64,000 nucleotides of DNA from Sanghuangporus weigelae (taxonomy: Eukaryota > Basidiomycota > Agaricomycetes > Hymenochaetales > Hymenochaetaceae), in assembly GCA_033182465.1 (NCBI GenBank), contig CP137321.1, positions 1,922,001 through 1,986,000 of the forward strand, written 5' to 3'. Shown piece after piece: positions 13,945 to 16,702 of the stretch. How positions within the stretch are numbered: the stretch's first letter is position 1; each line of letters begins with the position of its first letter. The translations under genes were made by a program, and so were the position numbers. The notes below the pieces were generated by a model, which made no database searches, was not told where the DNA came from, and was given only the letters and a program-made list of their open reading frames with translations.

Positions 13945-15306
13945 ATGTATAACGGGATTGGACTTACGACTCCGCGTGGAAGGTATGTTTTACTCGTTTA
14001 TTGAAAAGTGCTTGTTCTGACTGTATATCCCTAACAGTGGAACCAATGGGTATGTTATGCGGAACCTCTCCACCTTGAGGCGGCATGAGACTGCGGAGGA
14101 AAGGGCAGCGGCGTGGGATATGGCTCCACCGAGGCATCGGGAACCGGATGCGGGTATCCTTGAACACGAAAGAAAACGCCAGGTTGAAGTCAAATGCTTA
14201 GAGTTGAGGCTTAAGTTGGAGGATGAAGAGTGTGTTTTATTCCTAATATTAGTGTCTTTTCTGAGAAATACTAACAGACATACAGAGTTGATGAAGACGA
14301 AATTGAGAAGCAGGTCGATGCATTACGCCAGAAACTGCTTACTTCGCTTGCCGGACCTGCTGCAAATGCGAAGTCTTTGAAGGCATCCGACACTCATGCA
14401 CTCGCAGCAGCGAAGAAAACTGAACTCGACAAAATGGCGCGTGCTCTTGGCACGAGACAAGATTATTCGGAAGGTGAAGCCTTCGATCGCGAAAAGCAAG
14501 AAGAGAACCGTATCAAACGCATGCAAGAACGCGAGGAGCGAGAACGACGCCGTGAAGAGGAACGTGCGCGTTATGAAGTACAAAAGGCCAAGTGGGAGGC
14601 AGAGCGCAAGGAACGCGAGAGGATCCGGCGCCGCGAAGAAGATAAAATGCGTCAAATGCGAGAACAGCGAGAACGGGAGTTCCGCGACCGTGAGCGCAAT
14701 CGGGATGTCCGTGATAGAGATCGGGACCGTATGCCGCCGCCTCCTGGTCCTCCTCGCAGGGGAGGAGGCTATAATCGACGCTCGAGCAGAAGCCGAAGTC
14801 CTCCGCGCCGTGGCCCTCCACCACGAGATGTGGTTCGCGCTCGTCGGCGCTCTTCGTCACCTGTCCGTCGACGATCTTACTCTCGTTCTCCACCTGCCCC
14901 GGCTCGTCGCGGACGCCCTATCTCGCGTTCACCTTCGCCAGTAGGCCGTGAAGACCGTTCCGTCTCACGTTCTCCGTCTCCGGATCGCTCAGCTTCGCCA
15001 CCGCCTCGTCGCGCAGCACTACGAGGCCGTTCTGATGGTCCTCCGCGCGGCAGCGAAAGCCGTAGTCCAAGCCCCAGGCGCTCTCCTCGTGCAAGTCGCT
15101 TCCAAGGGCGTTTATCACGCTCGCGAACCAGATCTGAATCATCTTTGTCGAGATCAAGGTCCCGTTCTTCTGATCAGTCAGGCCCTCGTGGTCGCAAGCG
15201 ACCGTCTAGTGTAAGCCCGTCACGCTCGCCTCCGCCACAACGGCGTCAGAGAAGCCGAAGTGCGTCTTCGGAATCATCGATGTCTGTTAGCTCAGACGAC
15301 AGATAA
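13945..15306 (+). CDS. CWC21: Cwc21/SRRM2-type spliceosome protein with RS-rich tail
   Basis: Three exons: 13945-13982, 14038-14229 and 14286-15306 (416 aa). The N-terminus MYNGIGLTTPRGSGTNGY is the hallmark of Cwc21/Cwf21 and of metazoan SRRM2, which sit near the exon channel of the catalytic spliceosome and contact Prp8 and Snu114. A cwf21 helical segment with EVDEDEIEKQVDALRQKLL follows, then a long charged ERRREEER coiled region (residues ~170-240), then an arginine-serine domain (RSRSPPRRGPP, SRSPSP, RSRTRSESSLSRSRSRS). The RS tail makes it more like SRRM2 than the short yeast protein. The role is known for the family; the tail function in fungi is inference. Confidence 0.93.
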
Positions 15307-15687
15307 ACGAATGCTTCGTGTTTTGTCCTTTATTCATGTGGAACGTTGTATGAAAAAAAAAAATGTACGGCTCCTTGACTCTATCAAAGTCATACCAATG
15401 TGGTCCATCAATTGTATATACTTCTGCATATGCATTCACAAAAATATGTGTTCAGAACTGGTGTTCCTGAGCTTCTTCAAGTCAAGTTCTTGTATTCTAT
15501 TCGCGAGGAAGCAATTATTTGAGAATAGGAGTGATATGATGAAGGTCTACAGAAGGCAACTGATAAGAGTAGGTCGAATCAAACACATCACAAAGTTCGT
15601 TTTCCAAACTCTCTTTTCAAATTTTGCAATCAAAGCAGTTTACAAGAATCTACTTTCTATCCTAAATCACAAAATCCTCAAATTCCG
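15307..15687. other. 3' region of CWC21, no gene seen
   Basis: About 380 bp of AT-rich sequence between the CWC21 stop and the downstream hairpin of the proximal U2 gene. An A9 run lies at ~15354-15363. No conserved frame or RNA signature was found. Confidence 0.4.
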
Positions 15688-15743
15688 TTCGCTGAAGACC
15701 ATCTTCCACTGAATCAAGTGGATAAAGTAGGAGCCTCAGCGAA
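15688..15743 (-). terminator. conserved hairpin 3' of U2 copy 1 (candidate RNase III or 3'-end processing site)
   Basis: Inverted repeat about 17 nt downstream of the U2 3' end. On the minus strand, TTCGCTGAG at the left pairs with CTTCAGCGAA at the right, and an inner arm pairs CCACT with AGTGG. The same structure with different bases follows U2 copy 2. In budding and fission yeast, U2 3' ends are made by RNase III (Rnt1, Pac1) cutting such a hairpin. Assigning that role here is inference. Confidence 0.6.
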
Positions 15744-15759
15744 GGGGAATTAAGGAGGG

Positions 15760-15954
15760 ATCCCCCGACAACACAAGCCATTAGTGCAGTAGCAAGGTCA
15801 TCGCGCCCGCCGAGTTGCAAGCAGAGCTCAGCGGGACAGGGGCGGCAAAAATTAGATAACCAAAGAATGAGGGCGGTGCCCTCATAATAGTGGTTAAACT
15901 ATTAAGAACAGATACTACACTTGATCTAAGCCAAAAGGCCAGAGTGGTAAAGAT
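15760..15954 (-). ncRNA. U2: U2 spliceosomal snRNA, copy 1 (consensus-like)
   Basis: Minus strand, 5' end near 15954 and ~195 nt long. Reading 5'->3': stem-loop I GGCCTTTTGGCTTAGATC; then AAGTGTAGTATCTGTTCTTA, which holds GTAGTA (15918-15913), the branch-point-pairing hexamer; stem-loop II with ATGAGGGC-ACC-GCCCTCAT inside TAACCA/TGGTTA; the Sm site AATTTTTG (~15855-15848); stem-loop III CCCGCTGAG/CTCGGCGGG; and a 3' stem-loop IV around CGATGACCTTGCTACTGCAC. Everything expected of U2 is present and paired. Exact ends are set by analogy to other U2 RNAs and by a TATA box ~25 bp upstream. Confidence 0.93.
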
Positions 15955-15976
15955 TCACGAATGTGCGCTCGCGGGC

Positions 15977-16011
15977 TTATATAGGATCGGAGGTTGGGGT
16001 GCGCACGGACC
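15977..16011 (-). promoter_or_regulatory. U2 copy 1 promoter: TATA box plus PSE-like blocks
   Basis: Minus strand: TATATAA at 15983-15977 (about -23 to -29), directly preceded by CCTCCGATCC (15993-15984), and GGTCCGTGC at 16011-16003. The same three blocks at the same spacing precede U2 copy 2, while the bases between them differ. This marks them as functional pol II snRNA promoter elements. Confidence 0.7.
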
Positions 16012-16382
16012 ACCTTTGATCGGCCGAATGAGGAAAGTGGAGGTGATCGACGCGATGGTGGAAACTTTGTTCTCGCGAACCAAATAGGAAATAGCTCCTC
16101 TGCAGATCTGGCCACTGGCCAGTCCTCGCACCGTTGAGCGCGAATCAAAAGGAAATCGCTTCTTCAGCCACAAGGCCACGATTTCCTTCGATTTCTTCGA
16201 GCCACGGTAAGCGACAGTTTATTTCGTACCATCAATATCAATAGACACGGGGTCATCAACTGTTCCCAATGACTTGTAACGTTGCAACTCTTCACAATCG
16301 GACTTTCAGGTGCTGTGAAAGCCAATCTTCATTCGTATCGCAGTGTTTTTGAAGTATATTCTGAACTAAGGTCTCAGATCCA
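16012..16382. other. spacer between the U2 genes
   Basis: No reading frame is conserved. The half next to copy 1 (to ~16215) keeps patchy similarity to the region upstream of copy 2 (aaataggaaat, ggccact...cagtcctcg, GCCAC motifs), so the duplication unit included ~250 bp of upstream DNA. Confidence 0.5.
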
Positions 16383-16437
16383 TTCGCTGAAGACCACCTT
16401 CCACTAAATAAGTGGACGAAGAAGGGACTTCAGCGAA
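16383..16437 (-). terminator. conserved hairpin 3' of U2 copy 2
   Basis: Minus strand: a perfect 10-bp outer stem, TTCGCTGAAG with CTTCAGCGAA, encloses an inner CCACT/AGTGG hairpin. It sits 14 nt beyond the predicted U2 end, the same distance and architecture as after copy 1. It is a candidate RNase III cleavage or termination signal. Confidence 0.6.
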
Positions 16438-16450
16438 GAGAATTTCAGAT

Positions 16451-16645
16451 GATCCCCCGACGACGCAAGCCGTTCGTGCAATGGCAAGGTCATCGCGCCC
16501 ACCGAATTGCGAACAGGGCTCAGCGGGACAAGGGCGACAAAAATTAAATAACCGAGTAACGAGGGCGCTCCCTCATAATAGTGGTTGAACTAATAAGAAC
16601 AGATACTACACTTGATCTAAGCCCGGGCGCTAAAGTGGTAAGGAT
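16451..16645 (-). ncRNA. U2: U2 spliceosomal snRNA, copy 2 (variant 5' stem-loop)
   Basis: Second U2 gene in tandem, its 5' end 691 bp upstream of the copy 1 5' end. The core GCTTAGATCAAGTGTAGTAT is identical to copy 1, including GTAGTA and the flanking helix II region. The Sm site AATTTTTG is kept. Stem-loop II (ATGAGGG-AGCG-CCCTCGT) and stem-loop III (CCCGCTGAG with TTCGGTGGG) stay paired through G-U or compensating changes. Stem-loop I differs most: AGCGCCCGGGCT replaces GGCCTTTTGGCT, changing the loop and one closing pair. Maintained pairing and a full promoter argue for a functional variant, not a dead copy. Expression is unknown. Confidence 0.85.
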
Positions 16646-16667: not shown

Positions 16668-16702
16668 TTATATAGGATCGGAGGTGGTGATATGCACGGA
16701 CC
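16668..16702 (-). promoter_or_regulatory. U2 copy 2 promoter: TATA box plus PSE-like blocks
   Basis: TATATAA at 16674-16668, CCTCCGATCC at 16684-16675 and GGTCCGTGC at 16702-16694 on the minus strand. Same order and near-identical spacing as at copy 1. Confidence 0.7.

Follow-up and report, generated by a model that had tools for sequence, protein, structure and literature searches.

Two canonical and one variant U2 snRNA genes with a common promoter and 3' hairpin anatomy in a probable fungus

Saccharomyces cerevisiae has a single U2 gene, LSR1. The 3' signal of metazoan snRNA genes is the 3' box, in place of which the genes described here have a hairpin, and in human snRNA genes the presence of a TATA box is associated with transcription by RNA polymerase III. 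U2 isoforms are recorded in fly, silk moth, sea urchin, mouse and Dictyostelium in the available part of PMC4291461. In Schizosaccharomyces pombe, hairpins are predicted after U1, U2, U4 and U5 (all Pol II snRNA genes) and Pac1 promotes termination (PMC8421224, accessible text), and in budding yeast Rnt1 cleaves at the U2 3' end (PMC1868780, accessible text). For the human snRNA promoters of the SNAPc type, the portion available of PMC6004067 gives the presence or absence of a TATA box as decisive. Among the literature matches listed (titles and the beginnings of abstracts, a coverage outside which most subscription papers fall), no fungal U2 variant was found.

The window, that is, the whole stretch of 64,000 nucleotides analysed here, gave two matches in an Rfam scan, both to U2 (RF00004), both on the minus strand and both covering the entire model (Table 1). 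This agrees with an earlier note, made from the letters of the window, that had described two complete U2 genes on the minus strand 691 bp apart: the start-to-start offset from copy A to copy B is 691 bp (15950 to 16641) and the intergenic gap is 500 bp. The 5' end of B was set at 16641 by alignment to A, the Rfam match itself stopping at 16639. The covariance search that the note had proposed for window and genome placed both copies above the gathering score of 46 bits and, in the whole genome (33.9 Mb, 13 contigs), added a third gene, copy C, which scores the same as A and lies on the same contig about 83 kb away and inverted. The gene set is two canonical U2 genes (A and C) and one variant (B), with no isoform pair; the "two U2 genes" and "diverged pair" of the note describe the window correctly but not the genome, where the RNA of C is identical to that of A. 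Copy B still passes the family cut-off and is therefore classed with U2, though as a variant and not among the canonical genes. Its score is far below that of A (69.8 versus 119.5 bits), which is the score half of the combined outcome that the note had named as speaking against its reading. Elsewhere in the genome, Rfam matches to spliceosomal snRNAs comprise two U6, one U4 and one U5; the Rfam-matched RNA of the two U6 genes is identical, and over 189 bp they are 97.9% identical, with all four differences outside the matched stretch. An assignment of A or B to U12 or another minor-spliceosome RNA was rejected: both score as U2, and the U12 model (RF00007) found no match in the genome, although it was equally silent in all control genomes.

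Table 1. Location of the U2 genes, their control elements and related snRNA features (numbers without a prefix are positions in the window; those marked C4 or C5 are genome positions).
Feature	Position	Strand	Remarks
U2 copy A (canonical)	15759-15950	minus	RF00004, 119.5 bits, E 1.3e-23, model 1-192/192; RNA identical to that of copy C
U2 copy B (diverged)	16451-16641	minus	RF00004, 69.8 bits, E 1.1e-11, model 1-192/192; 28 substitutions and 1 deletion relative to A
U2 copy C	C4:2021317-2021508	plus	119.5 bits, as A; outside the window
Copy A promoter, PSE-like GTCCGTGC and TATATAA block	15977-16010	minus	Pattern matches in genome and window
Copy B promoter, same PSE-like and TATA blocks	16668-16701	minus	9/9 and 18/18 identical to A; 5/9 differ between the blocks
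Possible U2-specific distal element of A, AGTGGCCAGA	16107-16116	minus	AGTGGCCARA and TGGCCA matches
Possible distal element of B, AGTGGCCAAA	16773-16782	minus	AGTGGCCARA and TGGCCA matches
Copy A 3' flanking hairpin (putative RNase III processing/termination site)	15688-15743	minus	Fold z -3.5
Copy B 3' flanking hairpin	16383-16437	minus	Fold z -5.2
Unit common to A and C	15677-16053	minus	377 bp, 3 mismatches; ends soon after the 3' hairpin
U1 candidate, PSE-TATA	C5:329844-329882	minus	Found only through the shared promoter
U5 gene	C5:2348628-2348745		Single Rfam U5 match in the genome

Two of the three mismatches between A and C lie at the upstream edge of their common unit and one in the 3' hairpin, with none in the RNA. 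Beyond this unit, a 1541-bp query searched in the genome and a comparison of the 3.2 kb surrounding C with the 6 kb surrounding A and B showed no DNA similarity other than that to B and matches of 13-36 bases, and no protein match between the flank of C and the window was found at E 1e-3 (open stretches of at least 80 aa, from 19.5 kb of the contig starting 6.8 kb before C). An origin of C by segmental duplication was discarded on these two grounds. The near-identity of A and C is confined to a compact unit and does not extend outside it, it is seen despite the distance and the inversion, and the neighbouring copy B has not been homogenised; either gene conversion or a recent, very small duplication could account for the likeness of A and C.

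Upstream of all three U2 genes lie GTCCGTGC, about 60-70 bp from the RNA, and then TATATAA, 26 bases from it. A gapped pattern built from the U2 and U4 genes, GTCCGTGCN{12,28}TANATAA, was searched in the 33.9-Mb genome and found eight sites, namely the three U2 genes, U4, a candidate U1 gene and three sites with no Rfam match, against four sites for the reversed-pattern control. Within the window it matches at A and B only, with no match in 100 shuffles, in line with the statement of the note that each copy has its own promoter. The snRNA-type promoter is intact in B: its PSE and TATA blocks are those of A and C, and the pattern extends to U4 and the U1 candidate. The U1 candidate was left out of the design of the pattern and therefore provides an independent check of the element as a marker of snRNA genes. 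Further upstream, a possible distal element was identified at the U2 genes, where TGGCCA (inside AGTGGCCA) starts 164, 139 and 132 bases upstream of the RNA in A, B and C, respectively; within 400 bp upstream it occurs at each of the three U2 genes but at none of the U1 candidate, U4, U5, U6a and U6b. The longer form AGTGGCCARA occurs twice in the window against 0.21 expected, a count also reached by 2 of 100 shuffles, and, when a gap of 90-120 to the PSE is imposed, once in the genome, at A, the gaps in B and C being shorter.

The candidate U1 gene has no match to the Rfam U1 model, even at E values up to 1. It starts with ATACTTACCTTGAGGG, 31 bases past its TATA box, and has a predicted 3' stem-loop; from this 5' end, whose motif ATACTTACCTT we take to be that of U1, and from the stem-loop, the gene is considered a U1 candidate. 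A run of eight T follows its last predicted stem-loop, and CTAACCCTAACCC, which resembles a telomere repeat, lies just beyond.

The U5 and U6 genes have another upstream element. This 26-nt element, CGACTGACNNAAACTCAAAAACGACG, has three sites in the genome (up to 3 mismatches were allowed and all three are exact; the control gave 0), and it lies upstream of both U6 genes (C3) and of the U5 gene, each time exactly 57 bases before the Rfam start. U5 has no run of more than four T, its Sm site being AATCTTTGG, and U2 and U4 carry T5 runs; a T5 occurs 15 bases past the Rfam end of U5, with no strong 3' hairpin. The element at the U6 distance, the lack of T5 inside U5, the T5 after its end and the lack of a hairpin would together fit transcription of U5 by RNA polymerase III, which may take place here. 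The T runs lose some weight as an argument with the U1 candidate, whose presumed body is also free of T5 and is followed by T8, yet which has a promoter of the U2 type. To our knowledge, transcription of all snRNAs by RNA polymerase III is unusual outside trypanosomatids. In trypanosomatids, as far as the accessible text of PMC4950102 goes, this polymerase transcribes all of them. The promoter shared by U5 and U6 may prove more interesting than the U2 pair itself.

A gene for a spliceosome protein with a cwf21 domain (CWC21/SRRM2-like) lies on the plus strand of the window at 13945-15306 and converges on the U2 pair; it is split by short introns, and the protein, joined by eye, matches Pfam PF08312 with an E value of 2.1e-17. 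Forkhead, Myb and PGAP1-like domains were found in open stretches (10 of 26 examined). These domains, the short introns of the cwf21 gene and the size and contig number of the genome point to a filamentous fungus, probably an agaricomycete. In the stretch around U4, a tRNA match with an intron-like insertion was found at 1157-1261 on the minus strand, some 240 bp downstream of U4.

At the other end of the U2 genes, all three copies have CTTCGCTGA 12-14 bases 3' of the gene and then a long hairpin with a lower stem of 10 pairs. The 3' hairpins attributed to each copy in the note are borne out by the folding of the flanks (Table 1): a stability equal to that of the hairpin was reached by 1 of 200 shuffles for A and by none of 200 for B. 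When the best of several 70-nt stretches 3' of each gene is taken, z is -4.6 for A, -6.5 for B and -3.3 for C, and the predicted energies of the hairpins are -27.1, -30.0 and -24.2 kcal/mol, respectively, the one of B being the most stable of the three. The same scan gave -1.1 for the U1 candidate (its end being assumed), -0.8 for U4, +0.3 for U5 and -2.2 and -1.6 for the U6 pair; these weak values make the strong hairpin a U2 feature among the eight snRNA genes scanned. We infer that RNase III cleaves at the U2 hairpins in this organism.

Alignment of the RNAs of A and B shows substitutions at 28 of 191 positions (22 of the 28 being transitions) and one deletion. The spacer between TATA block and RNA start differs at 11 of 26 positions (42%), a yardstick of only 26 bases, and by this measure the RNA body has changed more slowly than the spacer (28/191 versus 11/26, P 0.0017), also when the identical 30-nt core is removed (28/161, P 0.0076). 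The PSE core (0/9), the TATA block (0/18) and U2 19-48 (0/30) are without any difference. Set against the spacer, these blocks (0/57 versus 11/26) give a Fisher P of 5e-7, which is too favourable since they were delimited after the alignment had been seen; the longest identical run (30 nt) alone has a P of 0.14. This run is the branch-point core with the GUAGUA region, and both copies have the Sm site AAUUUUUG, as the note had reported for the branch-point-pairing region and the Sm site.

Over the 38 model positions at which the two copies differ, A matches the Rfam consensus at 20 and B at 7, so B is further from it; the first 18 model positions, where the Rfam alignment of B is out of register, hold 9 of the 20 matches of A and 2 of the 7 of B. 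Beyond these 18, the consensus base is carried by A and not by B at 11 positions, and by B and not by A at five (49, 97, 160, 162 and 171), which argues that B is not simply a decayed A. The loop AUUGCAC of B, presumably a motif of the U2B'' type, is among its consensus-matching positions. The promoter, core and 3' hairpin of B look maintained.

In a search for U2-like outgroups, viral contigs gave none and neither did genome contigs with the longer pattern; the shorter pattern found four stretches on three GTDB MAG contigs. These contigs, filed as bacterial, carry U1 and/or U2 genes, and one of them also 5S rRNA and histone 3' hairpins; they are taken as eukaryotic contamination, probably not fungal, and their U1 and U2 sequences were not used to polarise the A/B changes.

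According to the note, the positions that differ between the copies keep their pairing. Most stems bear this out: of the 10 pairs touched by differences, 7 can still form, and 14-19, 49-64 and 73-77 are lost, the last one through the deletion. No pair is changed on both sides between A and B. When the same substitutions were dealt out at random in 20,000 draws, over all positions or with paired and unpaired positions kept apart, the retention of 39 of 42 pairs was not significant (P 0.16 and 0.27, respectively); this first comparison is unfair to B, as the deletion is counted against it and is absent from the draws. Without the deletion pair, retention is 39 of 41 and becomes borderline (P 0.055 and 0.037). 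Compensatory pairing was thus dropped as a proof of function, and the kept pairing is weak evidence for function at best.

At the 5' end, 7 of the 28 substitutions fall inside U2 9-18. Five consecutive bases of stem I (14-18) are altered from CUUUU, found in A and in the Rfam consensus, to GCCCG in B, whose 5' end is predicted to be less stable (-2.7 kcal/mol) than that of A (-7.3). A stem I with the conserved UUUU loop is not found in B; pair 14-19 is lost and 6 of 7 pairs are possible. Pairing with the U6 of the same genome (helix II) is predicted to be kept in B but weaker than in A: with short segments, A forms 8 pairs at -14.8 kcal/mol and B 7 contiguous pairs at -8.9, and with longer segments the energies are -15.0 and -12.4, B gaining a bulged extension. 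These predictions of a weaker stem I and helix II are compatible both with a minor isoform whose 5'-end dynamics are altered and with incipient decay. Stem III has the tip CUUG in A and UUCG in B, two transitions apart; both are stable tetraloops, and this change fits constraint.

From its sequence, B is probably a retained and transcribed minor U2 gene or isoform. Alternatively, B could be a young or slowly decaying U2 pseudogene that lost its function at the 5' end, in stem I, before the rest had time to drift. The block change in stem I with the weaker helix II, the drop of 50 bits in covariance score and a pair retention that lies between chance level and borderline agree with this explanation, and B could be dispensable next to two intact canonical genes. 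However, the divergence of the spacer indicates that there was time for decay, yet the PSE and TATA blocks, the 30-nt core, the Sm site and the hairpin were kept, and the body changed more slowly than the spacer, and we regard a pseudogene as unlikely.

We give still less credit to the explanation that B is a functionally distinct isoform, stage-specific or with altered 5'-end rearrangements, in which the change of stem I is adaptive; such an RNA would pair with the same branch sites and alter the equilibrium of U2 stem I with the U2/U6 helices. The seven substitutions in U2 9-18, next to intact branch-point pairing and promoter blocks, speak for this explanation, and developmental regulation of U2 isoforms is described for fly, silk moth, sea urchin and Dictyostelium in the available part of PMC4291461. 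The promoter blocks of B, on the other hand, are those of A and give no sign of a different regulation, and adaptive and relaxed change are inseparable from a single genome. Most doubtful of all is its fullest form, in which the fungus would keep a stable second U2 with a rewritten stem I, regulated apart from the canonical one, and two spliceosome populations, in one cell or life stage, would differ in their U2/U6 rearrangement.

If B is a retained minor U2 gene, A and B would go back to the duplication, long ago, of a compact unit made up of PSE, TATA, U2 RNA and 3' hairpin, and A and its distant twin C, the source of the bulk of canonical U2, would have been recently duplicated or homogenised, the duplications having presumably occurred in this order. 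B would have escaped homogenisation and still be under selection. It would be transcribed, most likely by RNA polymerase II, from the PSE/TATA promoter common to U2, U4 and the U1 candidate, its RNA would be released through cleavage of the downstream hairpin, presumably by RNase III, and bound by Sm proteins at AAUUUUUG in a putative working snRNP, and it would be used as a minor U2, probably of low abundance, with the same branch-point pairing as that of A. The suggestion of the note that a diverged pair could supply two U2 isoforms can be kept in part: at the level of the gene sequences, two isoforms are encoded and the signals of B look maintained, but the canonical isoform is encoded twice, by the identical genes A and C, which leaves B as a lone variant. 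An expressed B would offer a natural and genetically simple test of whether U2 isoforms matter, with one variant beside two identical normal genes. In addition, a compact map of snRNA control elements was gained, sufficient to reveal a U1 candidate missed by the Rfam model.

Compared with known systems, the 3' ends resemble those of U2 in budding and fission yeast (Rnt1 and Pac1; PMC1868780 and PMC8421224, both in their accessible parts), where a stable stem-loop likewise lies just 3' of the mature RNA; unlike S. pombe, for which hairpins after U1, U2, U4 and U5 are given in the available text of PMC8421224, only the U2 genes are followed by a strong hairpin here. The promoters recall the human PSE promoters of the SNAPc type (PMC6004067, available portion) in having a short upstream element common to snRNA genes, located here 60-70 bp before the RNA. 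They differ from the human ones in that the U1 candidate, U2 and U4 have a TATA box, whereas U5 and U6 share another element with no clear TATA box. Finally, several U2 genes and isoforms that differ in their bases are also found in the U2 families of animals and Dictyostelium, whose members can differ in expression according to the accessible part of PMC4291461; here, a lone variant stands beside two identical genes in a probable fungus. Copy B is a minor variation on a kind of gene well known in other organisms, namely animals and Dictyostelium.
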